Shown here: positions 4,419 to 62,797 of the stretch, piece by piece
How positions within the stretch are numbered: position 1 is the stretch's first letter
Layout of the letters: each line of letters starts with the position of its first letter
Origin: Pycnococcus provasolii
Taxonomy: Eukaryota; Chlorophyta; Pseudoscourfieldiophyceae; Pseudoscourfieldiales; Pycnococcaceae
Assembly: GCA_938743325.2 (NCBI GenBank)
Contig: OW568876.1
Location: 434,001-498,000 of the forward strand
Direction of reading: 5' to 3'
Length of the DNA stretch: 64,000 bases
Translations under genes and position numbers: made by a program
The notes under the pieces: model-generated
Databases searched by the model: none
Seen by the model: only the letters and a program-made list of their open reading frames with translations
Told to the model about the DNA's origin: nothing

Positions 4419-4479
4419 GAGATCCCTCATTCAGTAATGAAGTGTACTTTACTCTGTCCAGCGGTTGTCCATTCACACC
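4419..4479 (+). promoter_or_regulatory. Recurrent 3' element, copy 1 (after guanine deaminase)
   Basis: Begins GAGATCCCTCATTCAGTAATG, then GTACTTTACT, then GTCCATTCACACC. The same order of blocks recurs after six other genes in this window, always in the sense direction of the gene just ended. Confidence 0.75.
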
Positions 4480-5002
4480 ATGGGTATGAAATCCCTATCC
4501 ACGCGTGGAAACCACATTATGCATTGTAGACGCTGATCTGATCCACGACTTTGATCCACGCTGAAAGAAACCTGATGGAATGCGTGCCATCACAGATAGA
4601 CACAGTGGTGACACAGGTGACAACAGGTGACAGGTGACAAGCACAGCACACTGTGGTGGGGCATTCTCCGAAGGGGTGGGATCCCCCGTTGCACCGCTAA
4701 TTGGGTCGCACCCTTCTCTTCTTCCCCCGGGGGATTTTGATCTGCTTTTTTCACATCCCCCCCGCCTTCCCCGGTGCCTACTTCCTCCTCTTATTTTCCC
4801 TTCTCTTGCCCTCTCTTGCAAGGCCTCTTTCATCTTTCATCTCAAACTCAATCAAGGCGGCCCTTGATCGGTGATCGCTTAAGCCTTGAGTGAGCAACGG
4901 ATCGTGCAAGAGATCGTTGCAGTCGGCTTTCAGAGACCTTGCAAGCCGCCCTTCAAGGCTCGCAGTTTTTTCACGACTGTGTTAGAGTGTTTAGACCTCT
5001 CG
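4480..5002. other. Intergenic, no gene seen
   Basis: Region between the 3' element and the carrier gene. A pyrimidine-rich tract lies at about 4710-4840 and probably belongs to the carrier promoter or 5' leader. No coding sequence supported. Confidence 0.5.
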
Positions 5003-6196
5003 ATGGGCAGTGAGACACGCGAGACACGCAACGGGATGAACGCAGGTGGCTGGGCGAGGCAAAGAGCTGCTGGTGGTCGTCGCGTGTGCCGACGGCTCGC
5101 ACGACGAGGCGAAGTCCAAACCACGAAAGCGGCACCAAGGCAAACGCGACGCAATCACGCTTGCGAACCTCTCGTGGCTTCTTTGACTCTGCGGTGGGCT
5201 AAGCGAGAGTCCGTCGCATGCACGCCCGTGGTGGCGACGACAACGACGACGTACGCAAGCTTCAACCCGGCAACACGTGGCGCCGTCGCGGGTGCCATGG
5301 CTGGAACGCTCGTGAGCCTCTGCCTGCACCCCGTGGACACTGTCAAGACTGTGCTGCAGATGAACCGGGGAGGCAAACGTCAAATACATGGTGTCATCGC
5401 GGACATCGTGAAACGCGGGGGGGTGCGTGCCCTCTACGGCGGCATCATCGCCAACCTCGCGACGTCTGCGCCCACGTCGGCGATCTACGCATCAGCTTAC
5501 GAGGCAACCAAGGTGCGCATTTCGCCGAGGCTTTCCCGTGACCGGCAGTGGATTGCTCACTGCACCGCGGGTGCCACGGCTTCCGTCGCCACTAGCTTTG
5601 TGTACACACCGAGCGAGTGTGTCAAGCAGCGTGTTCAGGCTGGCCAGTATAAGCACAGCTTTGCCGCACTTGCCGGTGTGCTTCGCGACGAGGGGCCACG
5701 GCAGCTTTACCGAGGTTGGGGAGCGGTTCTGCTGCGCAATGTGCCGCACTCCGTGCTCAAGTTCCTCGCGTACGAGCAAGGCAAGGCGTTCGTACTGCGG
5801 CGGCAATCGTTGAGAAATGGAGGTGGCGGCGTTGTGGCAGAGCGAGCAGTATTGGCGCCGGCTTGGAACCTTGCGGTGGGTGCGTGTGCGGGATCCACCG
5901 CCGCGTTGTTCACAACCCCCTTCGACTTGGTGAAGACGCGCCTGCAGACGGATTCAGCGTACGCCGCAACGCACGCGTCCGCGTCGGCGACGCGGTACCG
6001 AGGCGTGGCGCACGTGCTTCGCACAATTGTGCAAGAGGAGGGCTTCCGCGGCCTCTATCGCGGCATCGGCCCTCGTTTGTTTATTTATTGCAGCCAAGGA
6101 GCGATCTTCTTCGGCAGCTACGAGCTCGCCAAGCACCTCTTTGACCGCCCTCCTGCGCAGAGTGCCGTTGGTGTTGGCGGCGGTGCGCGAAGTTGA
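5003..6196 (+). CDS. Mitochondrial carrier family (SLC25) protein
   Basis: Six-helix organelle inner-membrane carrier, 397 residues from ATG 5003. All three repeats show the signature: HPVDTVKT, TPSECVKQR and TPFDLVKTR, each followed by the GxxGLYRG-type end (GVRALYGGI, GPRQLYRGW, GFRGLYRGI). About 90 basic residues precede the first repeat; they are rich in Arg and Ala and poor in acid, so they may be a cleavable leader, unusual for classical carriers but known in some plant and algal ones. PVDTVKT combined with PSE.VKQR resembles S-adenosylmethionine and mitoferrin-like carriers. Substrate cannot be fixed without contact-residue alignment. It is in tandem with the FBPase gene. Confidence 0.88.
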   Translation: MGSETRETRNGMNAGGWARQRAAGGRRVCRRLARRGEVQTTKAAPRQTRRNHACEPLVASLTLRWAKRESVACTPVVATTTTTYASFNPATRGAVAGAMAGTLVSLCLHPVDTVKTVLQMNRGGKRQIHGVIADIVKRGGVRALYGGIIANLATSAPTSAIYASAYEATKVRISPRLSRDRQWIAHCTAGATASVATSFVYTPSECVKQRVQAGQYKHSFAALAGVLRDEGPRQLYRGWGAVLLRNVPHSVLKFLAYEQGKAFVLRRQSLRNGGGGVVAERAVLAPAWNLAVGACAGSTAALFTTPFDLVKTRLQTDSAYAATHASASATRYRGVAHVLRTIVQEEGFRGLYRGIGPRLFIYCSQGAIFFGSYELAKHLFDRPPAQSAVGVGGGARS

Positions 6197-6674
6197 TCGC
6201 CGCTGTATGTACAGTCAGTATGGATAGTACTAACTTAATCTAACATTTACAGTAAATTTTTGCGTACATATGAACCTTAACCAACGTACCGTACTGTAAC
6301 CCATTCACGTTGATAAGTACAGTGTGTACTGTACTGTGTGCTGTGTGCTGTATGTACTATGTACCTGACAACCAACATAACTATGGTGATTCAGCAACAG
6401 CAACGCCATTTGTGTCGTTTTGCCTGTTATTTGAACTGGGGGTTCGCCAGTCTTTTGCTTTTCCAGGGATGAATGGGGGGTTTGACTGTCTGCTCCCCTT
6501 AAAGTTAGACTTACCGGTAGGGTAGACTTCAGGGGGGGGATGCTGAGGTGGAACCTGCCCGTTTTTCATCGCTTGTGATTGTTGTCCCCCAGGCTCCTCC
6601 AATATTGTCCATCCCGGTGGTCACGCATCATCACACGTTTGTCGCCGTGTGATCCTCCTTTAGGCACAACACAA
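6197..6674. other. Intergenic with TACTGTAC-rich segment
   Basis: The segment 6310-6365 is a run of TGTACTGT / CTGTGTGC-type words, similar to words around 18400 and 50140. No coding sequence supported. Confidence 0.4.
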
Positions 6675-7943
6675 ATGAATGCTCACCTAGCAACGCACAA
6701 ATGGCGAACTGTTGCGCCCCCCCCTGCTCGTGTCACTCACATCCATGCCCGCACGACATCGATGACCGTCAAAGCAGCCTCGCGCGCAAACTTCGACGAC
6801 AAAGACAAAGACAGGCTAGCATCGGCGTCCACATACAAGATTCCAACGCCGAACGAGACGCCACTGCACATTCCCCTCACGCATGGACAAGGACCCTCGT
6901 ACGATTTCTTCGAAGGACGCAACCTTGCGCTCGAGCTCGTGCGCGTGACGGAGTCCGCGGCGCTGAGGTGCTCACAATGGTACGGCAGGGGAGACAAGAT
7001 AGCCGCGGATCAGGCTGCGGTTGACGGCATGCGCGCGGTGCTGCGGCACATAAAAATGAAAGGCACGATCGTTATCGGAGAGGGAGAGAAGGATGAGGCG
7101 CCCATGCTGTACAACGGAGAAATGGTTGGTGACGGGTCGTCGCCCGAGGTAGACGTCGCCGTCGACCCCGTCGATGGCACTACTATGACGGCGAACGGTG
7201 GACCCGGTGCTGTCAGCGTCATCGCCGTGGCGGAGAAGGGCGCAATGTTCAACCCAGGACCTGTTGTGTACATGGAAAAACTTGTCGTACCAGAAGAGGT
7301 GCACGCGTCTCACGTCCACCTCGACGACCCAATCAGCCAGACGATCCGTACGGTGGCGGTGGCCAAAAAGAAGGCAGTTGAAGATGTCGTCGTGTGCATT
7401 CTGCAGCGTCCGCGCCACGAAAAGATCATCAACGAAGTTCGTGCTGCTGGAGCGCGTGTGAAGTTGATCGAGGATGGCGACGTCGCCGCGTCGCTTGCAG
7501 TTTCGAAGCACGGCAGTGGAGTTGACATGGTCGTAGGCACAGGAGGAAGTCCTGAGGGTGTCATCACGGCGTGCGCCCTTCGTGCGCTCGGGGCGCATAT
7601 GCAGGCACGTCTTGCCCCGCGCGATAAAGAGGAGCGCAAAGCTGCGATCGCCTTTCTTGGTTCAGCTGATCGCGTGGACCGCGTCATGCACACTGCCGAT
7701 CTGTGTGGAGGCAAGGAGCTCTTCTTTGCCGCCACAGGAGTGACTGACGGCGAATTCCTGCGTGGCGTGCACTTCCACATGGGCGGCGCGTCGACGCACT
7801 CGATGGTCGTGCGCAACCTGAGCGGAACGGTTCGTTACATGGATACGCACCACAAGTGGGCGAAGCCGAGCATAACCAACCCACGCTTCCAGCAGCAGGC
7901 GGACATTTTGATGAGCAACAAGGGCGAGGAGGACGACAAGTAG
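6675..7943 (+). CDS. glpX: Class II (GlpX-type) fructose-1,6-bisphosphatase, probably plastid
   Basis: Phosphatase for fructose-1,6-bisphosphate; in cyanobacteria this family also dephosphorylates sedoheptulose-1,7-bisphosphate. The core begins at RNLALELVRVTESAALR and shows the family motifs WYGRGDKIAADQAAVDGMR, GEGEKDEAPMLYNGE and DPVDGTTMTANG, plus GTGGSPEGV. Metal ligands sit in the GEGEKDE and DPVDGTT segments. ATG 6675 gives 422 residues; the first ~45 are basic and hydroxyl-rich (APPPARVTHIHARTTS), fitting a transit peptide. Green plants normally use the unrelated class I FBPase/SBPase, so a plastid GlpX would be notable; targeting is inference. Followed 37 bp after the stop by the recurrent 3' element. 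Confidence 0.92.
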   Translation: MNAHLATHKWRTVAPPPARVTHIHARTTSMTVKAASRANFDDKDKDRLASASTYKIPTPNETPLHIPLTHGQGPSYDFFEGRNLALELVRVTESAALRCSQWYGRGDKIAADQAAVDGMRAVLRHIKMKGTIVIGEGEKDEAPMLYNGEMVGDGSSPEVDVAVDPVDGTTMTANGGPGAVSVIAVAEKGAMFNPGPVVYMEKLVVPEEVHASHVHLDDPISQTIRTVAVAKKKAVEDVVVCILQRPRHEKIINEVRAAGARVKLIEDGDVAASLAVSKHGSGVDMVVGTGGSPEGVITACALRALGAHMQARLAPRDKEERKAAIAFLGSADRVDRVMHTADLCGGKELFFAATGVTDGEFLRGVHFHMGGASTHSMVVRNLSGTVRYMDTHHKWAKPSITNPRFQQQADILMSNKGEEDDK

Positions 7944-7980
7944 GGCGCTCGAGGTGGAAGGAGGACAAGGAGGTCAAACT

Positions 7981-8060
7981 GAGATCCCTCATTCATCAGT
8001 AATGTCCAAGTTGCACTTTAGATTGTCCAACGAAAGGTCGTCCATGAATTCATTCACACC
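7981..8060 (+). promoter_or_regulatory. Recurrent 3' element, copy 2 (after FBPase)
   Basis: Begins GAGATCCCTCATTCATCAGTAATG, keeps GCACTTTAGATTGTCCAACG, and ends GGTCGTCCATGAATTCATTCACACC. Its first ten bases are identical to copy 1 after an unrelated gene. Confidence 0.75.
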
Positions 8061-8638
8061 TTTCATTCACCACTCATCATCTCAAAAGTAGCATGCATCG
8101 CGTTTTTTTTTTGTACAACATCAACATGGCGCTGATTTCGAAGCTACTACTATACCTCGAACGAAATCACCGCCATGTATGTCGTTGCGGCAAGAGCTCC
8201 ACTTCCAAGGCGCTCGTACAGTACCTGTCGCACACACAACTGCGCCCATAAAGGTACCTGTCGTCGCCATCACCACAACTGGTCACAACCACCAACCCCA
8301 TGAACACGACGAAATCCTGAAGGCCGTTCAAGCGTCACACACTTACATTTATAAGGGAGAACCCCGAACTGCAGACAGAGTACCCGTAAATGAACCCCGA
8401 ATTCACATGATTCCGTTGTTGATCTTTTAGATTTTGGTAAGTTTGGGATGAGAGAATCCCGCACCCCCTTGCCACCTAGACTTTTGTACACGCGCAGTTC
8501 GTTTTGTTGAAGTGTGTTGCAAACCCTTGCTTGTTGCGAAGCCTATCCCCGTATCCCCATAAAGGTATCCGCCGGGATACGTATTGTATTGTTGTTACGA
8601 CACTGTTACTCGTAATAAATAAATAACCACTGGTCACC
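8061..8638. other. Intergenic, no gene seen
   Basis: Separates FBPase from formaldehyde dehydrogenase. An AT-rich patch (TAATAAATAAATAACC) lies just before the next ATG. No coding sequence supported. Confidence 0.5.
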
Positions 8639-12989: not shown

Positions 12990-13554
12990 CGAGAGAATGA
13001 GAGGGAGAGAGCCTACTCTTAATGAGAATGAGCCGAGCGACGAGTAACGCTGTGTGCTTTGTGTACTTTGTGTACTTTGTGACGTGACCCCTGAAGTGGT
13101 TGGGCGGAGAAACACCACACCCCTGGCTGGAGGGAGACGAAACGCCGAAAGAAAGGTACGGGTCCTCGGAGGGGCCTCGGAGGGGAGGGGGAAAGCCCAA
13201 AAGCAGTGACCTTGATGGGACGCACCCGGCACCGCACTGGGTGGGATTGGACGGGTGTTAGGGTTAGGGTTAGGGTTACGGGGTTAGGGTTAGGGTTACG
13301 GCTGGACTTCGGGGGTCATCCCGGGGGCGGGGGGAGGGAAAGGGCGAAGCAGGAAGCCCAACATGGAAGAGGGGACGCACCGCACGGGACGGGACGGGTT
13401 AGGGTTTTAGGAGGGGTGTTAGGGTTAGGGTTAGGGTTAGTCTGCCCCCTTTCTTTGTCTGAATGAAGTGACCTGTCGTCTGTCGCCGGGCGCACATATT
13501 CTCGCTCATATTCATCCATTCCGACGCTCGCCCGTCGTCATCGTCATCATCACC
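12990..13554. other. Divergent promoter region between WRC and AP2 genes
   Basis: Contains two TTAGGG arrays listed separately, a triple GTGTACTTT patch at 13055-13080 and G-rich runs. No gene seen. Confidence 0.55.
13255..13440 (+). repeat. Two TTAGGG-type arrays upstream of the AP2 gene
   Basis: Arrays at 13255-13300 (two blocks split by ACGG) and 13397-13440, both reading TTAGGG on the + strand, which is the sense strand of the AP2 gene starting at 13555. Confidence 0.85.
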
Positions 13555-14640
13555 ATGCCGCCTTCCTCCTCTCCGGCTCGCCGTGATGCCGCTCATGATG
13601 CTCATACAGCTGCTCATGAAGAGAAGCATGTTCTGCCGTATGATGATGTTTTGTTGCCAATCCTCCCTCCATTCCCCACTGTTGGTCCATCAACATCGAA
13701 TGAGGCTGCTATGATGATGGCGACTCCTCGTCGTATCATCTCGTGGGATACGAACAAAAAGCAGATGAGATTCACGACTCCGACGCCGGAAGGCAAGTCA
13801 CGCAAGCGCACTGCTGGCACATTTGACAGTGATGGCACGCACCACCATCCGCCGCTGGAAAAGAAGAGCGACGCCTCAAACAAAGTCGACGACGTTTCTC
13901 CTCTTGCAGCAACGGAGATGCAACCTCGTGCCCGACCTCGCAAAAGTCCTCTGCCAAGTCGCGTACCGGCTGCCGCTGCTGTGGTGCAACAAACGGCACA
14001 GCCTCTTGCCATTGCATCGTCGGAAGGAGCCGAATACCGCGGAGTGTATTGGATGCAAAAGCGTCAAAACTTCCATGCACAAGTCAAAACTTCCAACGGC
14101 AAGACACTCTACGTCGGGCGGTCCGCTGATGCCAAAGAGGCAGCGTTCATGCGCGATCGCGCTTGGCGCGACTTGGGCAAGGATCCGTCTAAATTGAACT
14201 TCGACGACACGGTACCGATACCTGACGAGTACCTCGCCTCGGTGGCTAAAGCCAGCAAGAAAACATGGGACTTTCTTGTGGGGCAACAAACTGCGCAACA
14301 ACCGTCGTCAGCGCCATCGGCAGAGAATGAGGATGATGGTGGTGCTCTTCTTGAAGCCGCTCAGCACGAGCACGAGATTCCTCTTGCGGCAGATGACGAC
14401 GACGAGGATGGTGGTGCTCTTCTTGAAGCCGCTCAGCACGATCACGAGGTTCCTCCTGCGGCAGCCTCCTCTCCAACCACCACCATCATCAACAACCACT
14501 ACCACTACCACTACCACTACCACTACAACATTCACAACGGCGCGTCGGCGACGTTTCACATAAACAACAACAGCTCCCCCGCCGCCGCCGGCATACCCAA
14601 CACCCATCATCATGTCGCGCAATCACCATCCGCTGAATGA
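13555..14640 (+). CDS. Single AP2/ERF-domain transcription factor
   Basis: Sequence-specific DNA-binding regulator of 361 residues from ATG 13555 (context CACCATG). One AP2 domain lies at about residues 160-217: EYRGVYWMQKRQNFHAQVK, then KTLYVGRSADAKEAAFMRDR and LNFDD. The YRGV start, the central aromatic/basic strand and the helix with AA...RD fit; the usual WAAEIR is replaced by FHAQVK, which is common in algal members. Upstream is a basic patch (SRKRTAG). Downstream is an in-frame duplication, GGALLEAAQHEHEIP and GGALLEAAQHDHEVP, then a His/Tyr tract (YHYHYHYHY). Regulon unknown. The recurrent 3' element's end block follows at 14742-14758. Confidence 0.85.
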   Translation: MPPSSSPARRDAAHDAHTAAHEEKHVLPYDDVLLPILPPFPTVGPSTSNEAAMMMATPRRIISWDTNKKQMRFTTPTPEGKSRKRTAGTFDSDGTHHHPPLEKKSDASNKVDDVSPLAATEMQPRARPRKSPLPSRVPAAAAVVQQTAQPLAIASSEGAEYRGVYWMQKRQNFHAQVKTSNGKTLYVGRSADAKEAAFMRDRAWRDLGKDPSKLNFDDTVPIPDEYLASVAKASKKTWDFLVGQQTAQQPSSAPSAENEDDGGALLEAAQHEHEIPLAADDDDEDGGALLEAAQHDHEVPPAAASSPTTTIINNHYHYHYHYHYNIHNGASATFHINNNSSPAAAGIPNTHHHVAQSPSAE

Positions 14641-14974
14641 GGTGAAAGATGCAGCGGAGACTCTTCTTCTTTGCCATGGAATTTTTGTAAAATCAAAGCT
14701 GTAACAGTTGCAAGCTTCACAACAACTTGTCATTCCGTACGGTCGTCCATTCACACCAGCGCATTCACATGTATCATCCAGCCCATTCATTGGTAAAATG
14801 CAGGGTACAACACAATCTTTTAGGTACAGCACGCACGCGACGACGCCACCCTCCTCAACTCAACGTCGAGCTGGGCGCATGCTTATATGCTCCGACATGA
14901 TTCAGAAAGAAACGTGTGTGTGTGTGTGTTTATTACGTGAGTGAGGCCTTAATATTAGGTGGTGTAACCTTAAT
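14641..14974. other. Convergent intergenic AP2/FolD
   Basis: Holds the partial 3' element and a (GT)n tract at 14912-14928. No gene seen. Confidence 0.5.
14701..14758 (+). promoter_or_regulatory. Recurrent 3' element, partial copy (after AP2 gene)
   Basis: Only the second half is clear: ACTTGTCATTCCGTACGGTCGTCCATTCACACC, sharing GGTCGTCCATTCACACC with the others; the CAGTAATG block is not conserved. Confidence 0.5.
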
Positions 14975-16362: not shown

Positions 16363-16665
16363 ATGGCGCAGCAGCGCGGCATGAAAGGTAATGGCGCGCC
16401 TTCTTCGTCTTCTTCACTCACGTCGGACTTGGTGCTGTCAGTCTTGTCGTCCAAGGTGACTTCTCTTGATAATGTGCAATCGTCCGCACTCGCGTCACTA
16501 GCTCGCCTGCGCCAGGAGGAGGCGCTCATTCGCGAAGAACTTGCGTCGAGGAATCGGGGGGAAGACGAAGGAGCTCACCACATGTTCATGTTGACACCTG
16601 CACCTGCACCTGCACCTGCACCTGCCGCCGACTTGTTTGCCGCCAACGGGACGACGTTGCCGTGA
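16363..16665 (+). CDS. Small hypothetical protein with coiled-coil stretch
   Basis: A 100-residue frame from ATG 16363, divergent from FolD. The middle (VTSLDNVQSSALASLARLRQ) has heptad-like spacing and a helical, acidic-basic composition that looks coding. The end carries five Pro-Ala units from CACCTG hexamers, then LFAANGTTLP. I do not recognise a family. It may be a real short gene or the first exon of a spliced one; no downstream exon was identified. Confidence 0.35.
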   Translation: MAQQRGMKGNGAPSSSSSLTSDLVLSVLSSKVTSLDNVQSSALASLARLRQEEALIREELASRNRGEDEGAHHMFMLTPAPAPAPAPAADLFAANGTTLP

Positions 16666-17066
16666 GCCGAAAGGTCTCCACTCGCTTTGGGCCAGCATAT
16701 GTCACACGCATCCGCTGGAGCGCAGCACGTCGATGCGCGGACGAGTGGCGCCACCGCACTTGTTGACGCAACCGCTTATCTAGCATGCGGGTGTAGGACT
16801 CTCGAAAAGCGAGGCGGAGACGAGCGTATTTCACGCGCGTGTCATCAATGCTGGGTGGAACTTTATATAATACCAAGTGTGTGTTTGTGTATTGTGTGTG
16901 TAAAGTAAACTTTAGTGCAAGCCTCAACTCCAAGATAGCTCTCCTTCTGCCAAAAATTGAAGAATGTGAAAGGTGTGAATCGACGACCTGTTGGACGAAG
17001 TAAAGCCAGTTCCATTACTGAATGAGCGATCTTAGTGACTAGTTGTGTTGTGTTGTGGTAAAATTG
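16666..17066. other. Intergenic; holds the DedA 3' element
   Basis: No coding sequence supported. A (GT)n patch lies at 16878-16903 and the reverse-oriented 3' element of the DedA gene at 16972-17032. Confidence 0.5.
16972..17032 (-). promoter_or_regulatory. Recurrent 3' element, copy 4 (after DedA gene, minus strand)
   Basis: On the minus strand: AGATCGCTCATTCAGTAATG, then CTTTACTTCGTCCAACAGG, then TCGTCGATTCACACC. Lies 35 bp beyond the DedA stop, showing that the element follows gene orientation. Confidence 0.8.
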
Positions 17067-18122
17067 CTAGCTGCTGCGGCGACTTGCCCTCATGCTCGAC
17101 AGTACCTCGAATATTACCGGGACTACGCTAACGAGCACAATGAGTAGCATCGCAATGGAGAAATTATTCTTGACGATTGGCAAATTCCCAGCGAAGTATC
17201 CTAGACCTGTGAAGCCAAACACCCATATGGCTGCGCCGCCAACGTTGAAAGCCGCAAATTTGCTGTATGCCATGCGCGCAACTCCCGCGACGAACGGCGC
17301 GAAAGTGCGCACGATGGGAACGAAGCGTGCGAGCACCACAGCCTTGCCTCCGTACTTGTCGTAGAATGCCTCCGTGTTTGCGACAGGCTTCGCTAACGTC
17401 TTGGGGTACCGCTCGACGAGAACGCGTCCGAAGTACTTGCCAATGGCGTAGTTCACGGCGTCGCCGAGCACGGCGGCGGCAAAGAGCAGCGGTGCAAGCA
17501 GTGTGAGCTGAAAGACTCCTTTAGCCGCAAAGGCGCCGCACGCGAAGAGTAGGGAGTCGCCGGGCAGAAACGGGGTGACCACGAGTCCCGTCTCGGCGAA
17601 CACGATGGCGAAGAGGATGGCGTACGTTAGACCTCCGTACTCCGTTGCGACGCTGGCGAGGTGCTTGTCGAAGTGCAGGACGAACGAAATGATGCCCGAC
17701 AGCGCAGAGGATGACGATGCGGCTGTGGTTGTCGCAGCGGTCGCACTCGCGAGCGCATGCGATAGCGGCGTTGAGACTGCGAGAACGAGTGCGGCCACCA
17801 GACAAGCAAGTAACGCCTTTGCAGGTCCTCCCCCTCTGCGAACCTTTGCGACTACCATTGCCGCATTAGCACCCATGTTGTCACGCTGTTGGCGCTGCCC
17901 GTGCTCCAGCACTCCTGATTGTGCTGGTCCTGGAGCGTCCGACTGTGCCGTGCACACGTGCGAAATTGTTGCCCGCCCACTCACTTGGCGACAAGCACGA
18001 GTAGCCTTGTTGTGGGCACGTGCTGGTACACGCCATGCCCTCCTGCATGCTTGGACTTTGGCGTACGCCGCAGACGACGACGACGGCGGCGGCGCCTTCC
18101 CGTTCACGCGGACGCCACGCAT
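17067..18122 (-). CDS. DedA/VTT-domain membrane protein, probably plastid
   Basis: DedA (SNARE-associated/VTT) family integral membrane protein, 351 residues from ATG 18122. The family domain occupies about residues 145-325: GLTYAILFAIVFAETGLVVTPFLPGDSLLF, GDAVNYAIGKYFGR and ARFVPIVRTFAPFVAGVARM, with the conserved E...PGDS and R..P..R...P..AG residues present. About 110 residues of Arg/Ala/Ser-rich leader with a hydrophobic segment (ALLACLVAALVLAV) precede it, fitting plastid or thylakoid import. Bacterial relatives are lipid scramblases or transporters; the cargo here is unknown. In tandem with the SET gene and followed by the recurrent 3' element. Confidence 0.85.
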   Translation of the reverse strand: MRGVRVNGKAPPPSSSSAAYAKVQACRRAWRVPARAHNKATRACRQVSGRATISHVCTAQSDAPGPAQSGVLEHGQRQQRDNMGANAAMVVAKVRRGGGPAKALLACLVAALVLAVSTPLSHALASATAATTTAASSSSALSGIISFVLHFDKHLASVATEYGGLTYAILFAIVFAETGLVVTPFLPGDSLLFACGAFAAKGVFQLTLLAPLLFAAAVLGDAVNYAIGKYFGRVLVERYPKTLAKPVANTEAFYDKYGGKAVVLARFVPIVRTFAPFVAGVARMAYSKFAAFNVGGAAIWVFGFTGLGYFAGNLPIVKNNFSIAMLLIVLVSVVPVIFEVLSSMRASRRSS

Positions 18123-22270: not shown

Positions 22271-25200
22271 ATGAACATGAAGAAGGTTGCTGTTGTGTCG
22301 TCAATGTCGTCGCCTTCTGGTGGTGGTGGTGGTGGTGGTGGTGGTGGTGGTGGTGGTGGTGGTGGTGGTGGTGGTAAACGTCCTCGGCCGTTTCGGTTTC
22401 GGTGTAGCTTATTAAGGGTTCATAGGACTACGGAGCCTACGGAGCGATATGGTGAGCGATATGATGGACATCCATGGAGAAGATCAAGGGTTGGTCTGGT
22501 TGCCATGAGTCATGTTCATGCATCTGGTGACTTGTGTCTTGCTGCACGTCCTCTCTCTTCTGGTGCACCTGGTGGTGACGACTCGCCGAAGAAGACATCT
22601 TTATCTTTATCTCGCAGCACGACAAAGAGACAGTCTTTGTCTCGCCCTCACAGGCTCGCATTCCTGAGCCTCAAGAGAACAACATCCATGGATACGACAT
22701 CCAGGAGGAGTTTTAGGTGTGCAGCATCATCCACGTCGTCAACAGTACCGTCAACTCCAGACAAATTGTCGAATGATGATAAAGGTGGAGGAGGAGCAGG
22801 AGGTAATGGAGGAGGTAATGGAGGATTCGCCATCGACGCCAGCGGCATTCTCGCAGGCCTAACGACGTCCGTCAGCTCTGTCGTATTCTCTATCAGCTTC
22901 GCCACGCTCATATACTCCGGACCAGGGGCGCCCGACGACGCACTCAGCCGGGGCGTCGACGTCTGCCTATTCAGCAGCGCGGTGGCTGCGTTCGGGCTTG
23001 GTATCGCAAGCAGGTTCAGCGGCGCCATCGGCGAGATGCAGGATGGACCAAGCGCTCTCAGCGGGCTCATCGCCGTGCGCATCTTCGCCGACGAATCGCT
23101 TTCTGACACTGCCAAGGTTGCGACACTAGAGGCTTGCCTTCACCTTGCGACGCTAGGAACGGCCGCTGCCCTCGCATTCCTCGGCACGCTGCGCCTTGGA
23201 AGCCTCGTGCGCGTCATACCAAGCCCCGTGCTTGGCGGGTTCCTCGCGGGCACTGGGTGGGTGCTTCTGTGCGGCTCGTACAAGGTGATGACAGGCCTTT
23301 CAGCAGACTTTGATGGCATCTCGCAAGGTATCAACAACCCGGACATCTTCTGGCTCGAGGTCGTGCCTGGCATAGCCTTCGGAGCGAGCCTCGCGTGGGC
23401 GCGTGACGTCTTCAAGTCCAGGTGGATCGTGCCCGCGTGGGTCATATGCGGCATCGCGACCTGGTACGCCGCGGCGCTAGTAATTGGCGGACGGTCACCC
23501 GCCGATCTCCTTGACGCCGGCGTTCTGCTGGGGCCGCTGCCACTGCCCACGGGCGCTGCGGCGGCTAACGCCCTACCGCTTGGCATCCCCACGCCTCTCT
23601 GGTTCGACCCGGAGCGATTCGCGGCGGTCGACTGGGCGTACGTTTTGAGAAGCTTGCCCGATCTGGCGACCATAACGGCACTCGCCGTTACAGGCATGCT
23701 GCTGAACGTGTCCGGTATCGAGCTTGCGTGCGGCCGTGACGCAAATGTGTCTTACGAAATGCAGGCGAACGGACTTACGAATCTAGTCAGCTCTGCGTCG
23801 GGAGCTCTTGTTCACTACCCTGGCCTGGCAAGCACGAAGCTCGCTTTTGAGACCATCTCAGGAGGCTCCGATGAGGCGGCGGCGCGAGATCGGCGTGTGT
23901 TTCCCTCACCGGGGATCGTCACCGGAGCGATTTATATGCTCATCCTCGCGCTGCATCCAGATGCAATAAACTACCTGCCCCGCTCGATCGTTGGGGGCAT
24001 TTTACTCTCTCTCGGCATCTCCTTCTTCTACGAGTGGGCCATCCAGGGCGCAACTCGCCTGCCTCGTCCCGAGTATGCGGTTGTGATCATTATTCTCGTT
24101 GCCATAGCCCTGTTTGGCTACCTGCCCGGCGTTGCCGTTGGCGTCGTGTCGGCGTTCGTCGTCTTCGTGGCTGACTACAGCCGCGTTCCTATCGTGCGAT
24201 TTCCATTCGAACTTGGCGGCCCAAACCCTCTCTTCAGCTCCAAATCGCGGTCGAAATTCGAACGTGCGGCTCTGCAGTCAAATGGTCAGTCGGCATACGG
24301 GCTGGTCTTGCAGGGCTACATTTTCTTCGGTACCGCATTTCGACTGCTCGAGCAGATCAGGTCGAGGCACACGAGCTTGGTCGAGGAGACCGGAACGGGC
24401 ATTCGGTGGCTCGTTCTCGACTTCCGCTACGTCGTCGGCATCGACGGTAGCGCAATCAGCGCTATCAACAAGATCCGCAACTTCGCGATTGAGAACGACG
24501 TTACCATCGTGCTAACAGATATGAGAACCGCCGTTGGGGTTGATCGCGTTGTGGCTGTTATCGTCTCGGGCGAGGATTTGACCGCGGGCCTTCGCGAAAT
24601 TGCGGTGAGCGAGAAGCAGCAAGAGAAGGAGTACTGGAATGAGGTTCTCAAATTCGCGGAGACGGAGCGCCGGGAGAACAAGCAGAACAGGCTGAGAGTC
24701 AAGGTGCTTCCTGAGCTCGACAATGGGCTTCAATACGTCGAGGCGAAGATTCTGGCAGAGAGTGTTCCTCTATTCATGCAGAACGGGGGTCTCAGCGGAC
24801 CTCAGCTGACACTCCAGGCGATTGTCAGCGCAGTAGGAAGGACAGACGAGCAGCGGGCGCAATTCCAGAATTGCTGGAGTGAGGTTGAGTTCAATGAGGG
24901 CGACGTGGTTTGTCGGCGAGGTGACGTAGCTGACATCATATATTTTATCGAGTCGGCAGAGGTCCAGGCGCTTTGGGCTCCAAATGTGACAATTGAAATC
25001 AACCACAACTTCCTAGGTGCCGCTGGCTTCTACTCTACGAGCGGCTTCGGCGCGGTGCGTTTCGCGGATGTGGTTGTGACTCGCAGCGGTCGCGGCTACA
25101 AGATCAGCGCAGAAGCATTGCGCGATCTCGACACAGAAGCTCCATCTCTCACCAGCAGGTTCCATCGCATCATGGCTGCTCATCTTGCGGACACGCTCAT

Positions 25201-25288
25201 CAGCCGCAACAAGGTGCTCGCTCAGTATCAGGATAATGAGAAGCAGGATGATAATCCTACACAGCTCGATTCCCCAGATTTGTCCTAA
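22271..25288 (+). CDS. SulP/SLC26 anion transporter with STAS and cyclic-nucleotide-binding-like domains
   Basis: Membrane transporter of 1005 residues from ATG 22271. Residues 17-36 are a run of about 19 Gly from a (GGT)n tract, followed by ~130 Arg/Ser-rich residues that may form a leader. The SulP membrane domain covers about 187-643 (GFLAGTGWVLLCGSYKVMTG, NVSGIELACGRDANVSYEMQ, YLPGVAVGVVSAFVVFVADY). A STAS domain follows at 667-757 (GYIFFGTAFRLLEQIR, LVLDFRYVVGIDGSAISAI). A cNMP-binding-like fold lies at 863-953 (FNEGDVVCRRGDVADIIYFIES). SulP-STAS-cNMP proteins are known from fungi (vacuolar basic amino acid type) and algae, so sulfate is not assured as substrate. The recurrent 3' element follows immediately. 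Confidence 0.9.
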   Translation: MNMKKVAVVSSMSSPSGGGGGGGGGGGGGGGGGGGKRPRPFRFRCSLLRVHRTTEPTERYGERYDGHPWRRSRVGLVAMSHVHASGDLCLAARPLSSGAPGGDDSPKKTSLSLSRSTTKRQSLSRPHRLAFLSLKRTTSMDTTSRRSFRCAASSTSSTVPSTPDKLSNDDKGGGGAGGNGGGNGGFAIDASGILAGLTTSVSSVVFSISFATLIYSGPGAPDDALSRGVDVCLFSSAVAAFGLGIASRFSGAIGEMQDGPSALSGLIAVRIFADESLSDTAKVATLEACLHLATLGTAAALAFLGTLRLGSLVRVIPSPVLGGFLAGTGWVLLCGSYKVMTGLSADFDGISQGINNPDIFWLEVVPGIAFGASLAWARDVFKSRWIVPAWVICGIATWYAAALVIGGRSPADLLDAGVLLGPLPLPTGAAAANALPLGIPTPLWFDPERFAAVDWAYVLRSLPDLATITALAVTGMLLNVSGIELACGRDANVSYEMQANGLTNLVSSASGALVHYPGLASTKLAFETISGGSDEAAARDRRVFPSPGIVTGAIYMLILALHPDAINYLPRSIVGGILLSLGISFFYEWAIQGATRLPRPEYAVVIIILVAIALFGYLPGVAVGVVSAFVVFVADYSRVPIVRFPFELGGPNPLFSSKSRSKFERAALQSNGQSAYGLVLQGYIFFGTAFRLLEQIRSRHTSLVEETGTGIRWLVLDFRYVVGIDGSAISAINKIRNFAIENDVTIVLTDMRTAVGVDRVVAVIVSGEDLTAGLREIAVSEKQQEKEYWNEVLKFAETERRENKQNRLRVKVLPELDNGLQYVEAKILAESVPLFMQNGGLSGPQLTLQAIVSAVGRTDEQRAQFQNCWSEVEFNEGDVVCRRGDVADIIYFIESAEVQALWAPNVTIEINHNFLGAAGFYSTSGFGAVRFADVVVTRSGRGYKISAEALRDLDTEAPSLTSRFHRIMAAHLADTLISRNKVLAQYQDNEKQDDNPTQLDSPDLS
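22319..22375 (+). repeat. (GGT)19 trinucleotide repeat encoding poly-Gly
   Basis: Uninterrupted GGT triplets inside the N-terminus of the SulP gene, likely length-polymorphic. Confidence 0.9.
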
Positions 25289-25322
25289 GACTGCGTAATG
25301 CAATGTACTTTACTTTTTACTG
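25289..25322 (+). promoter_or_regulatory. Recurrent 3' element, short copy (after SulP gene)
   Basis: GTAATGCAATGTACTTTACT at 25295-25314 matches copy 1 (GTAATGAAGTGTACTTTACT) at 18 of 20 positions. It fills most of the 50 bp between two convergent stop codons. Confidence 0.65.
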
Positions 25323-25338: not shown

Positions 25339-28300
25339 TCAATTGTCGTCGTCGTCGTCGTCGTCGTCGTCGACAACCACCGGAGCCGCGCCTGACGTGC
25401 CTGCGCGGTCCGCCGCCACGCCGAGAACATTCTGGTATGAAGCGAGGTCCACGCCCTGAGCATTCAGCAGGTCGATCAGCGCACGTCGTGCCTCGCATAG
25501 CGGCGTGTTTAGGATGCGTGCCAGCTGCGCGCGAGCCCTTAGCATCTTCGAGTCAGGCTCCTCACACAGCTGCGCGTACGAGATGCGAACGCCCTTTTGC
25601 ACATCCGCTAGGGCGTTTTTCAGCTTCTTCGACACGGTCTCGGCAAGAGTCTTGACAAGTCCGGAAACCTCGCCGGCGCACGACTTCATCATTGTTGTTC
25701 GATTATTGTCGACGAAAGTTTCGAATGAATCTGCACGTCGGCGGTGGCTCCCACTGCCTACAAATGCATATCCCGTTTGGTATGCCGGTGTACAGAATGA
25801 TTTGATTTTCGGTGCTGCTGAGCGTGATGCCTCACGCTGGGCTTCTTGCGCATGAGCCTTGAAGCCGTCAATCTTCTCATCGAGGGTCGCCATCAGATTC
25901 GCAGGGATGACAAAGCGGCTGCTGCTACTCGCTCCTCCAGCCGACGACGTCGAGACATCTTGACCTAGAAGCATGCCGCGCACTGAATTGGAGACCTCCT
26001 CCGATACACCTTCACTCAGTTTTGCCGAAATGATGGTGTTTGCTGCATCGCCCACAGCTTTCAGGTGATCGTTCAGAGCAGAAGATGCCTCAGCCTTGGC
26101 GCTGTCGATTGCCTCGCCGAGCGACGAGGCGAACACCTTCTCCCATCCGGACGCTGCTGCGCTCATGATGGGCTCAGAAATCATTTCGTTGAAGTTGATA
26201 CGCCACTCACCAAGTCTTCGAAACGTAGCCTTGTAGGTGCTCCAATTGATTCCACCATTTTGAGGAGATTTGGACCAGCTCCTAACGATGGCGCTCACGC
26301 TCGCCTCGCCATCCGACGCTCCACGCTTCAGGGCCGATAGCACTGAGTCGTTGAGCTTCGCAGAAAGCTTGCTGTGAAAACGATTCGAAGCACCATTCAT
26401 CATTTCTCGGAGCTGCATTTCCTTCTTTACGATGGCCGCACGAATCTGAGGCCGGAGATTCTGGACGATGGCGCCTGCATTCTTACCTGCACCTGCGGAA
26501 TCCACGCTGTGCTGGCACATCTGATGCACTTGCAACAGGAACCCGGCGACACTCGCAGCATGTCTCCGAGCATGCACAGCTCTGCGGTCGAGTGTGCTCT
26601 CGCTAGCATGAGCCATTAGATTGGGGATTTGAGTCTCGTCCTCGGTCGACCACAGCCGTGCCACAGGCGCCGCCGATGCAGACGACGACGACGAACCGGC
26701 TCCGTGCGCGGTGCGTTTCAACCCGCGCAGTGCCTGGTAGTCCCTTGCGCTGACAGTAAAGACGGGCAGGTAAAATCGCTTGGCGATATCGTCGCGGTCG
26801 ACAACACCGCCGCTCGCAGCTTGCACCTCAGCGACGCCGTCCAAGAAGTCCTTTTGGATGCGCATTTTGCAGTACTTGTTGCGTCGATCTGCAGCCTCAG
26901 CGCGCGTCGACTCGGATAGACCAAAGTTCTGTGCAAGCTCAGATCCAAGCACCTCATCGGTTTGGGTTGCGATGAAGGCAAGTCCGCCGGCAGAAGCGCC
27001 GCCTTCGCCGGGCGCAGATGCCATGCCGTCCATGAATAGCATGCGCCGAAAAGTCGTGCCGAGGAGGTCCTTTGCGATGCGATCGTCAACAGCTCTCTTG
27101 ATGTTGCTCACGATCCACACACCGTCAGCATTGCGAAGGTACTCGCGCACCACCTTGTCTCGTGCGCTGTCAGAGTCGCCAACGCCAGGTGAGTCGACGA
27201 GCTCAAGACCACACTTCAGATTTGTCCACGCCGCAGATGCCATGCGCACCTGTTTGACGATCGGCCAAAAGGCGCCGCCTTCCTGAACTTCGTTGGACGA
27301 ATCAACGTATCGCTCCACGAGGCGACGGAGTTGGCCAGCCGTTGGTGCCCGGAGTGTTTTGCTCTGTCCGAGCAACCGCGTAACTCGCTGATCGCGCAGG
27401 AGCTTCGCGCGTAGCATAGGGACCATCATCGGCTTGTACACAGCGCGCCCGTTGCGGTACTCGCCTGTGGGAACCTGGCTGTGCGTGTACGTCTCTCCGT
27501 AAACGGCAAGGAGCTTGCAGAAAGACGCGTATTGTGGGCGCTCGGGGTCCATTGTGAGGTAGGCGCGACCTTCGTCGGTCTGCAACTCGCTGAGAAGTCC
27601 GTCGAGTTCGCTAATCCATGCATCTTGCGAAATGAAGTCGACGACTGCTTCGTACGGATTAGGGTCGTCGACGGGTATGCCGCGCGCGTGACGCAGTGTC
27701 ACTATAGCAGCTGTGGAGGCGCGCATTCCATTCGTCGGCAGAGCATCCGCTTCGTTGAGCATGGCGTTCAGCAGCGTACTTTTACCAGCTCCTGTGGCTC
27801 CACACACGACGACGCTGCTTATAGAAAGTTCGGTGAACTTTTTCAGCTTCTTCACCTCCTCCAAGTTTGCTTGGACGATTTCTTTCGAAGCGTAGTGGGG
27901 TTGGTCAAGCAGCGCAGACGCCACCTTCTTTGCTACCCACGTGTTTATGCCCACCGCGGCAGCCTCGGCGTTGAGCAGGTCATCCACCTCCTCCTCGGTG
28001 CGAACAGAGAGGGGCTTCTCGTGCATCGAAAGGTTGGCTTCCAGGGTCGCATCGTCGATGCCATTCGACGAGGGTGGTCGGTGCGGCTGCGCTGGAGCCG
28101 CTGGAGCCGTGTTGACAAATGGCGGTGCCATTGGCGCCTTGCCCTTCGGGTCGGCGGGCATCGCCGGCACCGGCGCCGGCGCCGGCGCCATGTCAGCGTG
28201 AGCGTCAACGTCTACAGCAGCTTGCGCTAGCATCGGCACGGCTGACACGGCGGTCGTCGTTGCGGCTGGCGGTGCGATTGAGGTGATGAGATTCGCGGCG

Positions 28301-39351: not shown

Positions 39352-39432
39352 GATCTGTCTGATTGCTTATTCAGTAATGGAATGGAGATTACTTCGTCCA
39401 ACGGTCGGACGTCCGTTCCCACCATTCACACA
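39350..39432 (+). promoter_or_regulatory. Recurrent 3' element, copy 5 (after LpxC)
   Basis: GAGATCTGTCTGATTG, then CTTATTCAGTAATGG, then ATTACTTCGTCCAACGGTCGG, then ACGTCCG and CCATTCACAC. Overlaps the LpxC stop codon region and nearly reaches the PurF stop on the other strand. Confidence 0.8.
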
Positions 39433-39444
39433 GGGGGGTTGATC

Positions 39445-57109: not shown

Positions 57110-57169
57110 GCATGTAATGGGTCCCAGTTGATGGCCGCCGGTCCCTTAAAGTTAACGGTCTATTCTATG

Positions 57170-57268: not shown

Positions 57269-57529
57269 CCCCGAACAGAGTTTCCTCCTTCGATTCACCC
57301 CCCCCTGTCACACTTACCCTTTCACCGTCACCACAGAACGATCAGCACGGCACGCACGACGGACTTTTTATGTCTCCTCGCGACCTGCCGCCATGATCGA
57401 CACCCACCCTCATTCCCTGCCGTCCGTGCCTTCTCATCGCCGTTCATCTGACTTCACCGCTGCCACACTCAACATTCGCCACCACTCGTCCTCAAACGCA
57501 CCTCCCCTCCACACCTGTGAGGTGAACCC

Positions 57530-58783: not shown

Positions 58784-58815
<32 letters not shown>

Positions 58816-60530: not shown

Positions 60531-62486
60531 ATGGCGCGACTTTATGGTCAGTCTATGTGGTGGTTCTTGAAGATACCTCTGTTGGTCACAATACTCGTTG
60601 TTAGGCTGGCGCAGCTGTGCTCGCCTGCCGAGACGTACCTGCTCGAGAGGTTGCAAATCATGCACCTCGCCGCGAATGAGCCGCCTCCTCCCGCTGACTT
60701 CAACGACGCCGTCCGCGTGCGTTCGCCGTTCGCCTCGGAGGATGGCGGGAACAACGCGTCGTTCGTTGAGGTGACGCTCTGCACATCCACCGACCCGGCA
60801 GCTTGCCCAGACTTCGCCGTGCTTGTACCGAAAACAAGGGATTCCTCCCTCGCACAGCGGCGCCGACTTCCTCTCATCTCGTTGGTGTACCCGCTCTTCG
60901 GCATGGACGCTGGAACGTGGGCGCGCGTCAAGGACTCAGCCACGCTCACGCACCTCGCAAGCCACGGGTTTGCCGTGGCGTATAGCCTGCACCACGCCAC
61001 GAGCGGCGTTCGTGCTTGCGCCAACTGCCACGGCATCGAGGCGTACCTGATGCATGCCGCTCATCCTGTCATGGGACTTCACGCGGTGCTCGCCGCAGCC
61101 TACCCCGACCTCTCGGGTCAAGCCTTTTCGGCGAATGCGAAGATGAAGACGCCGACGACGTCAACGTTTCGCTTGCCCGGAAGAAGAAAGAAGGCTGGGC
61201 GCGACGTGCCACCCTTCCCGGACAGCCGCGTGCAAACGATTCCGTACGACGCATCGGGAGTGGCGGCGGCGGATGCACTTCGCGGGCGTGTCGACGCGCA
61301 TCGAATGGCAATCAGCGGATTCTCCGTGGGCGGTGCGGTGGCTGCTAGCGTCGCGCGCACGTGCGCGGTGCAGGGCGAGGCGACTTGCGGTCAGGTGCGG
61401 TTTCGCAGCTTCGCGGCGCTCGCGCCAACGCCAGGCTTGCCGATTGAGCAGGGTGGTGTGGGCACGCGCGAGTCGATGTCCAACCTCACCGGCGCGCCCG
61501 GGCTGTCGGGTCTCATCGTCGCGGGCGAGAATGACCGCATGGGAGCAACCACGGACGGGGTGGACTTTCTCTACGAGCGGATGACGGACTCGCCGCGCGT
61601 CAGCGTGCTGATTCGTAACGCGAGCCATTGCTTCGTTGCCGCGCCGCCGTCGATCGAGTGCGGCGTGAATCCCGTGGAGACGACGCGCGACGCCTTCTCG
61701 CTGCCACCGCTGCCGAATCCTTACTTCAATAAGCAAATCGCGACGGCGCGCATGCTTCTCGCTCAATTCTTCACAGCCTCTTTGGGCGATGCACGCGACC
61801 CCAACGTTGCGGCGGCGGCGGCTGACATTTGGAGCGAGGATGGCACGATGAGCCGTGCAGCTAAGGCTACGCCGTGGCACCCTCTGAGCGCGGACGTTCT
61901 GGCGCTGGGACGCATGCGGCGAGATCCGGAGATGACTCTCCAGACGAGTAGTAGTGTCATCTCTGGTGGGCAACAACAGTGCGTGGACATGACGCTTTCC
62001 GTTCCCACAGAACAGCTCGCGGTGGATGAAGATGGACGTCAAAGCGAGTGGCGTGTTGGGCTGGCGGATGGTGGGATCCAGGAGGATGGTGAGATGGAGG
62101 GTGGTGGAACTCCGAGACGAGGTCTTCTGCAGTACGATCGATGGGTTGCTGGAGGAGGAGGAGGAGGAGGAGGAGGAGGAGGAGGAGGAGGGCAACAAGG
62201 GCAACAAGGGCAACAAGGGCAAGAGCAGCAGCAACAACAACAACAACAAGAGCAGCAGTCATATTTTCCCGTCGTCACGCCGGATGCGCCACTTCGCTTG
62301 ACCAACGCTGACTTTGTTCGCAACCAGGCTTCGTTCCGCGCTTGCGCTGTTGCTCCATCAAAAGCTGCACGCCGAGCAAAAGCTGCACGCGTCACGGTGG
62401 CAAAGGTGACATCGCCGACGGGACCCGGGTCGGAGGAAAGCGCCGCCGTGGTGGAGGCGTTGATAAGTAAGGTGATATGGTTGTAA
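60531..62486 (+). CDS. Alpha/beta hydrolase with signal anchor, lipase/esterase-like
   Basis: Serine hydrolase of 651 residues from ATG 60531. A signal anchor (FLKIPLLVTILVVRLAQL) places it in the secretory path or at a membrane. The fold shows PLISLVYPLFGMDAGTW (oxyanion strand), a nucleophile elbow ISGFSVGGAVAA (G-x-S-x-G), the acid in IVAGENDRMG and the catalytic His in IRNASHCFVA. The overall order resembles the chlorophyllase/dienelactone-hydrolase group of plants. Around residues 545-580 the C-terminal part carries poly-Gly (from GGA triplets), GQQ repeats and poly-Gln, then an unrecognised end. Substrate unknown. The recurrent 3' element follows 71 bp after the stop. Confidence 0.78.
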   Translation: MARLYGQSMWWFLKIPLLVTILVVRLAQLCSPAETYLLERLQIMHLAANEPPPPADFNDAVRVRSPFASEDGGNNASFVEVTLCTSTDPAACPDFAVLVPKTRDSSLAQRRRLPLISLVYPLFGMDAGTWARVKDSATLTHLASHGFAVAYSLHHATSGVRACANCHGIEAYLMHAAHPVMGLHAVLAAAYPDLSGQAFSANAKMKTPTTSTFRLPGRRKKAGRDVPPFPDSRVQTIPYDASGVAAADALRGRVDAHRMAISGFSVGGAVAASVARTCAVQGEATCGQVRFRSFAALAPTPGLPIEQGGVGTRESMSNLTGAPGLSGLIVAGENDRMGATTDGVDFLYERMTDSPRVSVLIRNASHCFVAAPPSIECGVNPVETTRDAFSLPPLPNPYFNKQIATARMLLAQFFTASLGDARDPNVAAAAADIWSEDGTMSRAAKATPWHPLSADVLALGRMRRDPEMTLQTSSSVISGGQQQCVDMTLSVPTEQLAVDEDGRQSEWRVGLADGGIQEDGEMEGGGTPRRGLLQYDRWVAGGGGGGGGGGGGGGQQGQQGQQGQEQQQQQQQQEQQSYFPVVTPDAPLRLTNADFVRNQASFRACAVAPSKAARRAKAARVTVAKVTSPTGPGSEESAAVVEALISKVIWL

Positions 62487-62797
62487 GTACATAATTCGGA
62501 TGCGATCTGGAAAAATGTGCGAAATTTTTGAATAAGAAGCGCGAAAGATGGTTGCTAAGATCGCTCAATTCAGTAACGTAATAGAGTTTACTTTGTCTAT
62601 TCGGCAGCGCCATATTCCGCAGCGCGCGTTTGTACATGTCACGAACGGAAGCAGAGGCGCCAAATGGAGGGAGAAAAAACGAGTCAACAATGTTCCGATC
62701 AGGTGGAGTACTTCCGATTTTCCGATTTCCGATTTCCGATACCAAATCGCAAACCCAGTCCCCACATTTGTCCATTATCCACAACAACATCCACACC
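62487..62797. other. Intergenic; 3' element and leader of the next gene
   Basis: The 3' element occupies 62558-62602. Three CCGATTT-type units lie at 62714-62740. An in-frame ATG at 62636 exists, but composition up to 62797 does not look coding. Confidence 0.45.
62558..62602 (+). promoter_or_regulatory. Recurrent 3' element, copy 7 (after alpha/beta hydrolase)
   Basis: AGATCGCTCAATTCAGTAACG, then GAGTTTACTTTGTC. Shares AGATCGCTCATTCAGTAA with the DedA copy; the GGTCGTCC block is lost. Confidence 0.65.

Follow-up and report, generated by a model that had tools for sequence, protein, structure and literature searches.

Why do unrelated genes of a 32.3-Mb algal genome carry the same short block of sequence just past their stop codons? 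Within the window, the 64-kb stretch of DNA analysed here, the first-pass annotation had listed seven such blocks of about 60 bp, each 0–105 bp past a stop and in the sense direction, and had suggested either a conserved signal for 3′ processing or transcript stability, or a mobile element recruited as a terminator. The host is photosynthetic or of such descent, since a search for light-harvesting genes finds 51 chlorophyll-binding stretches above cut-off in its genome. The block proves to be one end of a transposon, and the question becomes what that end does for the genes that keep it.

Copies in the 64-kb window

The window was scanned with a profile built from 53 5′ ends of the element and with a second profile of the whole element. 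A 5′-end stub at 4417–4481 (plus strand, model positions 1–65; 5′-end profile match 4418–4487, E 5e-22) lies 6 bp past the stop of an amidohydrolase ORF (2935–4410), and a longer 5′ part of the transposon at 7979–8341 (plus, positions 1–264; match 7980–8066, E 2e-9) lies 35 bp past that of a GlpX-type FBPase ORF (6579–7943). On the minus strand, an internally deleted copy at 16661–17035 (positions 1–73 and 304–659; match 16956–17034, E 1e-19) sits 31 bp past the stop of a VTT/DedA ORF (17067–18122, minus). The stub at 39357–39430 (plus; positions 5–70 matched from 39361, start extrapolated; match 39361–39431, E 2e-15) begins 5 bp past the LpxC stop and occupies most of the 93-bp gap between that stop at 39351 and a convergent ORF (39445–41115, minus). 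A short stub at 62555–62599 (plus, positions 1–44; match 62556–62598, E 2e-6) follows the stop of ORF 60531–62486 at 68 bp. The worn stub at 14739–14794 (plus) is recognisable over positions 45–95, with a partial 5′-end match (14739–14785, E 0.003, positions 45–86 only) and an extrapolated start at ~14695, 54 bp past the stop of ORF 13468–14640, which has no Pfam match.

The shared element is therefore real: the profile recovers five of the blocks first named, at E 5e-22 to 2e-6, and reversed control sequences yield one match of 3.0 bits. Six of the supposed seven copies are backed by the whole-element profile (that at 14739 in part), all in sense and at 6, 35, 31, 5, 68 and 54 bp from their stops. 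The seventh, placed by the first-pass annotation at 25289, is not backed; it is a doubtful remnant (25295–25316, plus, positions 18–39, E 0.12) that the whole-element profile does not match, in a 50-bp gap between convergent ORFs 22271–25288 (plus) and 25339–29499 (minus), adjoining a sulfate permease. By Pfam the genes are unrelated, as had been claimed. The length of about 60 bp describes the short stubs and fails for the copy running from 7979 to 8341, for the minus-strand copy running from 17035 to 16661 and for full-length copies elsewhere. Three further window matches, all on the minus strand (E 3.3 to 6.3), and a match in another stretch (L070, E 0.76) are at chance level.

Structure and class of the element

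The ~60-bp block is a stub, the 5′ end of a larger element. Full-length copies (L047, L056, L057 and L060) measure 981–1030 bp, carry imperfect terminal inverted repeats (TIRs; 17 of 23 positions agree between the two ends in all four) and are flanked by 8-bp target-site duplications, three exact and one matching at 7/8. Exact matches to a 14-bp core occur 235 times in the genome, and to its reversed control 0 times. Inverted repeats, 8-bp duplications and hundreds of dispersed copies together establish a mobile origin. The longest ATG ORFs of the four copies are 87, 96, 122 and 233 aa; one weak coding segment is found in one of them, and by ORF length there is no conserved coding capacity. 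We class the element as a nonautonomous DNA transposon with TIRs. MITEs are by usage shorter than about 800 bp, a length that 981–1030 bp exceeds, so we do not call it a MITE in the strict sense.

The termini read CTGAG (or CTAAG) at the 5′ end and CTAGG at the far end. TIRs of the hAT superfamily start with YARNG, to which these ends fit at four of five positions, an equivocal match; the 8-bp duplication agrees with a hAT feature. Genome searches for transposase domains gave a single hAT dimer match, barely above cut-off (24.9 versus 21.4 bits), and MULE matches of which 13 of 15 exceed the cut-off and which are not linked to the element. No KDZ match was found in the genome, in a search whose control gave no signal either.

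With one end intact and the other missing in many copies, we considered a retroposon inserted in antisense. SIDER-like retroposons lack TIRs and have target duplications around truncated copies too. Here the full-length copies have TIRs and 8-bp duplications, and 38 of 43 copies, the truncated ones, share no flank longer than 5 bp within the 24 bases around the estimated break that were compared, and on these grounds we rejected the retroposon. (The 43 derive from 66 copies, of which 46 rows at ≥84% identity to a reference were kept and three more dropped with a best match not at the 5′ end.) The five that do share such a flank are the four full-length copies and L059, whose flanks share 9 bp and which we judge to be an internally deleted copy. 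A tRNA-derived repeat was rejected, as ARAGORN finds 0 tRNA genes in the window and the termini and target duplications of the full-length copies point to a DNA transposon. So was a structured RNA: no Rfam model reaches its gathering score anywhere in the window, and the predicted folds of four stubs are no more stable than those of shuffled sequences (z −0.17 to 1.02).

Placement at gene ends and one-sided decay

Scanning 144 kb end to end (the window plus ten other stretches), we find all nine clear copies 5–88 bp past a sense stop; random placement within 105 bp has a chance of 3.0%, giving p ~2e-14. The three copies outside the window all fall within 105 bp of a sense stop (~3e-5 at the same rate). 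The nine leave out the 25295 remnant (E 0.12, directly past a stop), the L070 match (E 0.76, inside a coding segment) and the three chance-level window matches, two of which fall in coding segments while the third has no stop in the 400 bp upstream of it.

In a larger set of 66 copies, from which matches starting past model position 20 (such as that at 14739) and repeat fetches of the same place were dropped, 64 have a same-strand gene upstream, with genes called by codon usage only. The exceptions are L016 and L035; judged by eye, the gene at L035 may finish with a short plus-strand exon closed by the TGA of the element. The distance from stop to element has a median of 10 bp (n = 64), lying between −21 and +35 bp in 49 copies and at 1–16 bp in 29. 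No copy is in a divergent context. Convergent contexts account for 36 of the 66, and orientation is uninformative there because the 3′ ends of both neighbours face the element; the far end of L057, for instance, is only 39 bp from the convergent stop. Tandem gaps hold 18 sense and 2 antisense copies (p 2e-4), or 10 and 1 among better-scored calls (p 0.006). In both samples of the genome, then, the copies heed gene ends and strand, the opposite of the indifferent spread that the first-pass annotation had named as speaking against its claim.

Some of the genes end in the element itself. Bases 2–4 of the element are TGA or TAA in 46 of 66 copies and form the stop of the upstream gene in 8 of 64 (TGA in seven, TAA in one); in two more of the 64, the stop is the element's TAA at 19–21. 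Comparison with an empty site shows that L056 inserted into coding sequence, 46 bp ahead of where the native stop ends.

Decay is one-sided. Among the 40 best-scoring of 180 candidates found with an internal query, 38 reach the 5′ terminus (≤13 bp; two are ambiguous) and 6 reach the 3′ terminus (≤10 bp; Fisher p 8e-14). This query, 251 bp long, is closer to the 5′ than to the 3′ terminus and so exaggerates the contrast; even so, by our arithmetic, if every base were equally likely to be lost, about 9 of the 40 copies should lack their 5′ end. Contiguous 5′ homology stops at 57–95 bp in 17 of 34 copies that had not been selected as full-length; high-identity copies continue for hundreds of further bases. 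A 348-bp 5′ query finds 458 candidate places in the genome against 24 for a 3′ query of equal length. Of these 24 loci, a 5′ partner is present at 13 or more, and the 3′ terminus is intact at 6 (p 0.075); for the remaining 11, loss of the 5′ end is a possible explanation.

Proposed co-option as a gene end

Of the interpretation first offered, the mobile origin holds, and co-option as a transcript end gains backing from the one-sided decay. We favour, at a probability of roughly 0.6, the reading that the element's end carries a transcript-ending signal that genes have co-opted as their 3′ end; placement and one-sided retention are what we observe, and the function is what they suggest. The element would insert within a gene's final codons or within some tens of bases beyond them. 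Its sense-oriented 5′ terminus would then act as a complete gene end, bases 2–4 being read as stop and the first 65–75 bp putatively directing mRNA cleavage, polyadenylation and termination. Insertions that cut a gene off from its native 3′ end would be tolerated in sense orientation only, and because the gene would thereafter depend on the 5′ terminus, deletions would strip the rest and leave a stub of ~60–90 bp. Selection for such a 3′-end signal may underlie the decay. Counting against the proposal, the supposed 65–75-bp unit is incomplete in two window copies, those at 62555 and 14739. A search for a shared motif in native gene ends gave no clear signal among 37 ends, which are too few. 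More tentatively, and with the odds somewhat against it, the element could be a portable gene end, whose terminus (C-stop-G, as in CTGAG or CTAAG, with CTAGG at the other end) is followed by a 3′-end signal so that insertion at a gene end is harmless or useful; repeated waves would then have supplanted the original 3′ ends of a substantial fraction of the alga's genes, with 60–90-bp stubs as working terminators.

Position and orientation could instead be the work of the transposase, which would pick gene 3′ ends in fixed orientation, for example tethered to the termination machinery or to open 3′ chromatin, the stubs being useless to the host. All 31 copies of a mostly high-identity set (L039–L068) have a same-strand gene upstream, like older ones; the 5′ end faces the stop in four of four intact copies with target duplications; and the frequency of copies drops over some tens of bases from the stop (29 of 64 lie at 1–16 bp). 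Targeting leaves unexplained the retention of the 5′ end and the loss of the 3′ end, a loss after which no target duplication is seen (38 of 43 copies share no flank over 5 bp), and fixed orientation is unusual among eukaryotic TIR transposons. We regard it as unlikely, and as improbable that the copies are neutral leftovers in a compact genome whose 3′ flanks are the least harmful place, with position and sense arising from purging elsewhere. Element-free convergent gaps are indeed small (nine, of 11–764 bp, seven below 170 bp), so insertions there necessarily lie near stops, and 36 of 66 contexts are convergent; yet neutrality does not predict the sense bias of the tandem gaps, the concentration of distances at 1–16 bp rather than across the flank, or one-sided decay.

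Slightly less probable again is that the stub affects mRNA stability or translation, as SIDER2 does in Leishmania, rather than 3′-end formation. The stub would lie within the 3′ UTR if transcripts pass through it, and retroposons in such a role are known (PMC2323293); nearness to the stop and the filling of most of the convergent gap from 39351 to 39445 fit a gene end better, and the four stubs have no stable fold. That the block is a host 3′-end motif of independent origin is hardly tenable: stubs of ~60–90 bp, taken alone, would resemble such a motif, but full-length copies with TIRs and target duplications refute it for the family as a whole, as does the run of high-identity copies into hundreds of further bases.

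In the open-access literature we found no description of this repeat, nor of a DNA transposon adjoining stops in one orientation. Tn7 inserts in fixed orientation directly past a stop codon at bacterial attTn7, a single site with a dedicated recognition protein. The algal element resembles it in oriented placement past a stop, and differs in occupying many unrelated genes of a eukaryote. SIDER1 and SIDER2 are retroposons of Leishmania, of which SIDER2 affects mRNA stability (PMC2323293, PMC11520807). They too are mobile elements of a protist, degenerate and scattered in hundreds to more than a thousand copies, almost confined to 3′ UTRs and with host recycling proposed. Unlike them, the alga's element is a DNA transposon, bounded by TIRs and 8-bp target duplications, and one of its termini lies ~10 bp from the stop and is retained as a stub. 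MITEs in the 3′ UTRs of rice genes, which repress translation, are likewise nonautonomous DNA transposons that affect the host gene; the abstract makes no mention of a fixed orientation, of a stop codon supplied by the element or of decay at one end (PMC5338036). In mammals, too, mobile elements supply transcript ends to host genes; the cases considered here concern Alu and other human elements, not a single DNA-transposon terminus adjoining stops (PMC3517506, PMC4666398).

Our best reading of the extent is that hundreds to perhaps 2,000 genes may have co-opted the element. If the stub ends transcripts, a DNA transposon would have rewritten how genes end at their 3′ side, in a few to perhaps ten percent of them. 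It would then offer hundreds of natural replicates for the question of the minimal 3′-end signal, a way to ask how an element spares its host through position and orientation and at what pace native terminators are replaced, and a short terminator, already present in many copies, for expressing genes in the alga. The stretch studied here is richer in copies than others: its 64 kb hold 6 clear ones, and ten other stretches of 8 kb hold 3 between them.

Position and orientation of the element relative to stop codons

We scanned 144 kb end to end: the window, picked for its copies, and ten other 8-kb stretches chosen blind to them. All nine clear copies begin 5–88 bp past the stop of a coding segment on the same strand, bearing out the placement after sense stops that the first-pass annotation had proposed. 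Random positions fall within 105 bp after a stop in 3.0% of draws (nine of nine copies, binomial P = 1.9 × 10⁻¹⁴) and within 35 bp in 1.4% (six of nine copies, P = 6 × 10⁻¹⁰). Those lying outside the window, three in number, begin 8, 12 and 88 bp past a stop, for which the chance is about 3 × 10⁻⁵ at the same 3.0% rate. Chance-level matches were excluded from this test, and the start of the copy at 14739 is extrapolated.

We also searched the same sequence with a profile built from 53 5′ ends. It finds five window copies at E < 1 × 10⁻⁵, with those at 14739 and 25295 scoring 0.003 and 0.12. The E values of three further window matches lie between 3.3 and 6.3; a single match, of 3.0 bits, comes from the reversed sequences. 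A whole-element profile backs six of the seven window copies originally listed; the seventh, placed at 25289 and corresponding to the match at 25295, remains doubtful. The same profile recovers three copies in the ten stretches (L072, L074 and L077) and, on the reversed window, nothing at E up to 1.

We then assembled 66 copies, retrieved with the 5′ core, retrieved by full-length similarity or already lying in the stretches. The upstream segment is in sense in 64. By context, 36 copies are in convergent gaps and 18 are tandem-sense; a further 10 have no downstream call, 2 are tandem-antisense and none is divergent. Among the 64 sense copies the median distance from stop to element is 10 bp, with 49 at −21 to +35 bp, 29 at 1–16 bp and four beyond 105 bp. 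Because both genes' 3′ ends face the element in convergent gaps, orientation there is uninformative and the sense claim rests on the tandem gaps. These hold 18 sense against 2 antisense copies (P = 2 × 10⁻⁴, several downstream calls being weak), or 10 against one where the downstream call scores at least 28 (P = 0.006).

The element can itself supply the stop. Eight of the 64 copies have bases 2–4 as the gene stop (TGA in seven cases, TAA in L053), and two use a TAA at positions 19–21; across the whole set of 66, 46 copies carry TGA or TAA at positions 2–4. Joining the flanks of the copy L056 places its insertion inside coding sequence: without the element the frame would end 46 bp beyond the insertion point, and it now ends 4 bp into the element. 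In three other copies the insertion point lies past the native stop, by 28 bp (L057), 55 bp (L047) and 11 bp (L060).

Nested or tandem elements occur in L065, L066 and L068 (after position 1780). Two of these, L066 and L068, have a high-identity copy beside an apparent older stub with the same gene upstream, as if these gene ends had been hit twice.

Two genes beside window copies are of bacterial type. LpxC, of the lipid A pathway and here in a eukaryotic nuclear genome, occupies 37330–39351 (+) as a 673-aa ORF whose match to solved structures starts at residue 408. A GlpX fructose-1,6-bisphosphatase lies at 6579–7943 (+), with the family match running from ORF residue 114.

Structure and class of the full-length element

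The four full-length copies measure 981, 1023, 1029 and 1030 bp. The element had initially been described as about 60 bp long; stubs of that size exist, and copies extend far past it. The ends of the full-length copies are inverted repeats (17 of 23 positions matching). Three are flanked by exact 8-bp duplications, GTTTAGAT, CTTTTTGG and AAAAAAAC, and the fourth by an inexact one (CAAAAAAG versus CAAAAAAA). Their longest ATG frames vary from 87 to 233 aa. The element is a nonautonomous DNA transposon.

Genome searches for transposases gave one hAT match, barely above cut-off and without link to the element, and 13 MULE matches above cut-off, none tied to it; a KDZ search returned zero matches, though its control gave none either. 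MULE matches of equal score in 765-aa open frames at C6:968533, C8:472659, C13:258723 and C18:308439 could represent a recently active autonomous family.

One-sided retention and a proposed gene-end role

Decay is one-sided. An internal query (about positions 90–340) has 180 candidate places, of which the best 40 were scored. At the 5′ terminus 38 of the 40 come to within 13 bp, the coordinates of the other two (on C16 and C33) being ambiguous; at the 3′ terminus 6 come to within 10 bp (Fisher P = 8 × 10⁻¹⁴). This contrast is favoured by the query lying nearer the 5′ end. For a query of the last 348 bp all 24 candidates were scored, yielding 28 pieces from 24 loci. A 5′ partner some 700 bp off is present at 13 or more of these loci, and 6 keep the near 3′ terminus (P = 0.075); the 11 without a listed partner may have lost the 5′ end, or hold one that was overlooked. 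With a 5′ query of the same length the candidates number 458 against 24. Exact genome-wide counts, from patterns of unequal length, point the same way: 235 for the 14-bp 5′ core CTCATTCAGTAATG (113 and 122 on the two strands; reversed control, 0), 97 for a younger-type 5′ pattern, 4 for an internal 23-bp pattern and 8, one place being double-counted, for a 3′ 17-bp pattern.

In 38 of 43 copies no flank longer than 5 bp is shared within 24 bases beyond the estimated break, which places the loss of the far part after insertion. The five exceptions are the four full-length copies and L059, which has a 9-bp shared flank and is read as internally deleted. Among the 34 profile-matching copies of 35 not picked for full length, contiguous 5′ homology ends at 57–95 bp in 17. 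The patterns used for fetching, 23 to about 44 bp long, partly set the lower bound of this range but do not account for the pile-up above it.

Taken together, the position, the sense orientation, the use of stop codons and the retention of one side are explained most simply if the 5′ terminus is able to act as a gene end, which is probably how the element works. An element inserted no more than a few bases from a stop would separate a gene from its own 3′ signals, and would be tolerated if the terminus, as is predicted, supplied replacements; the rest of the element would then be free to be lost. The four stubs folded gave no stable RNA fold, and 37 native gene ends were too few for a motif comparison. 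Polarised insertion at gene ends, the main rival, accounts for the placement of young copies, since all 31 of the mostly high-identity set L039–L068 have a same-strand gene upstream, but it leaves unexplained why the far end, rather than the gene-side end, is lost.

Transcript ends derived from mobile elements are known in mammals. For a DNA transposon with one end adjoining stop codons in fixed orientation and kept as a stub, we found no precedent in the literature searched. The nearest case for 3′-UTR placement is that of the Leishmania SIDERs, which two reports (PMC2323293, PMC11520807) describe as a mobile family almost exclusively in 3′ UTRs, SIDER2 affecting mRNA stability; SIDERs are retroposons, whereas the element here is a DNA transposon. 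In rice, MITEs embedded in the 3′ UTRs of genes cause translational repression (PMC5338036).

Copy number and genomic setting

The genome comprises 32,333,900 bases in 46 contigs; the window corresponds to C16:434001–498000, and its GC is 57%. A pattern longer than the 14-bp core, taking in blocks two and three of the original description, matches the genome 127 times, double matches at single places included, against 0 in the control. Three copies in 80 kb outside the window suggest about 1,200 genome-wide (Poisson 95%, about 250 to 3,500); scaling up the nine found in 144 kb puts the figure at about 2,000, but the window was chosen for its copies. We called 44 coding segments across the ten stretches and 28 across the window. 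On that basis the share of gene ends affected would be on the order of a few to twelve percent, a rough figure given that segments may be exons.

Telomere-like repeats (CCCTAA/TTAGGG variants) adjoin two truncated copies past the element: L004, at 381 kb of the 1.49-Mb contig C1, and L041, less than 3 kb from the start of C6.

Chlorophyll a/b-binding stretches number 51 in the genome, every one above the family cut-off; the host is thus photosynthetic or of such descent. Two clusters of these genes lie at C31:133072–142609 and 360395–368369, with 12 equal-score stretches on both strands.
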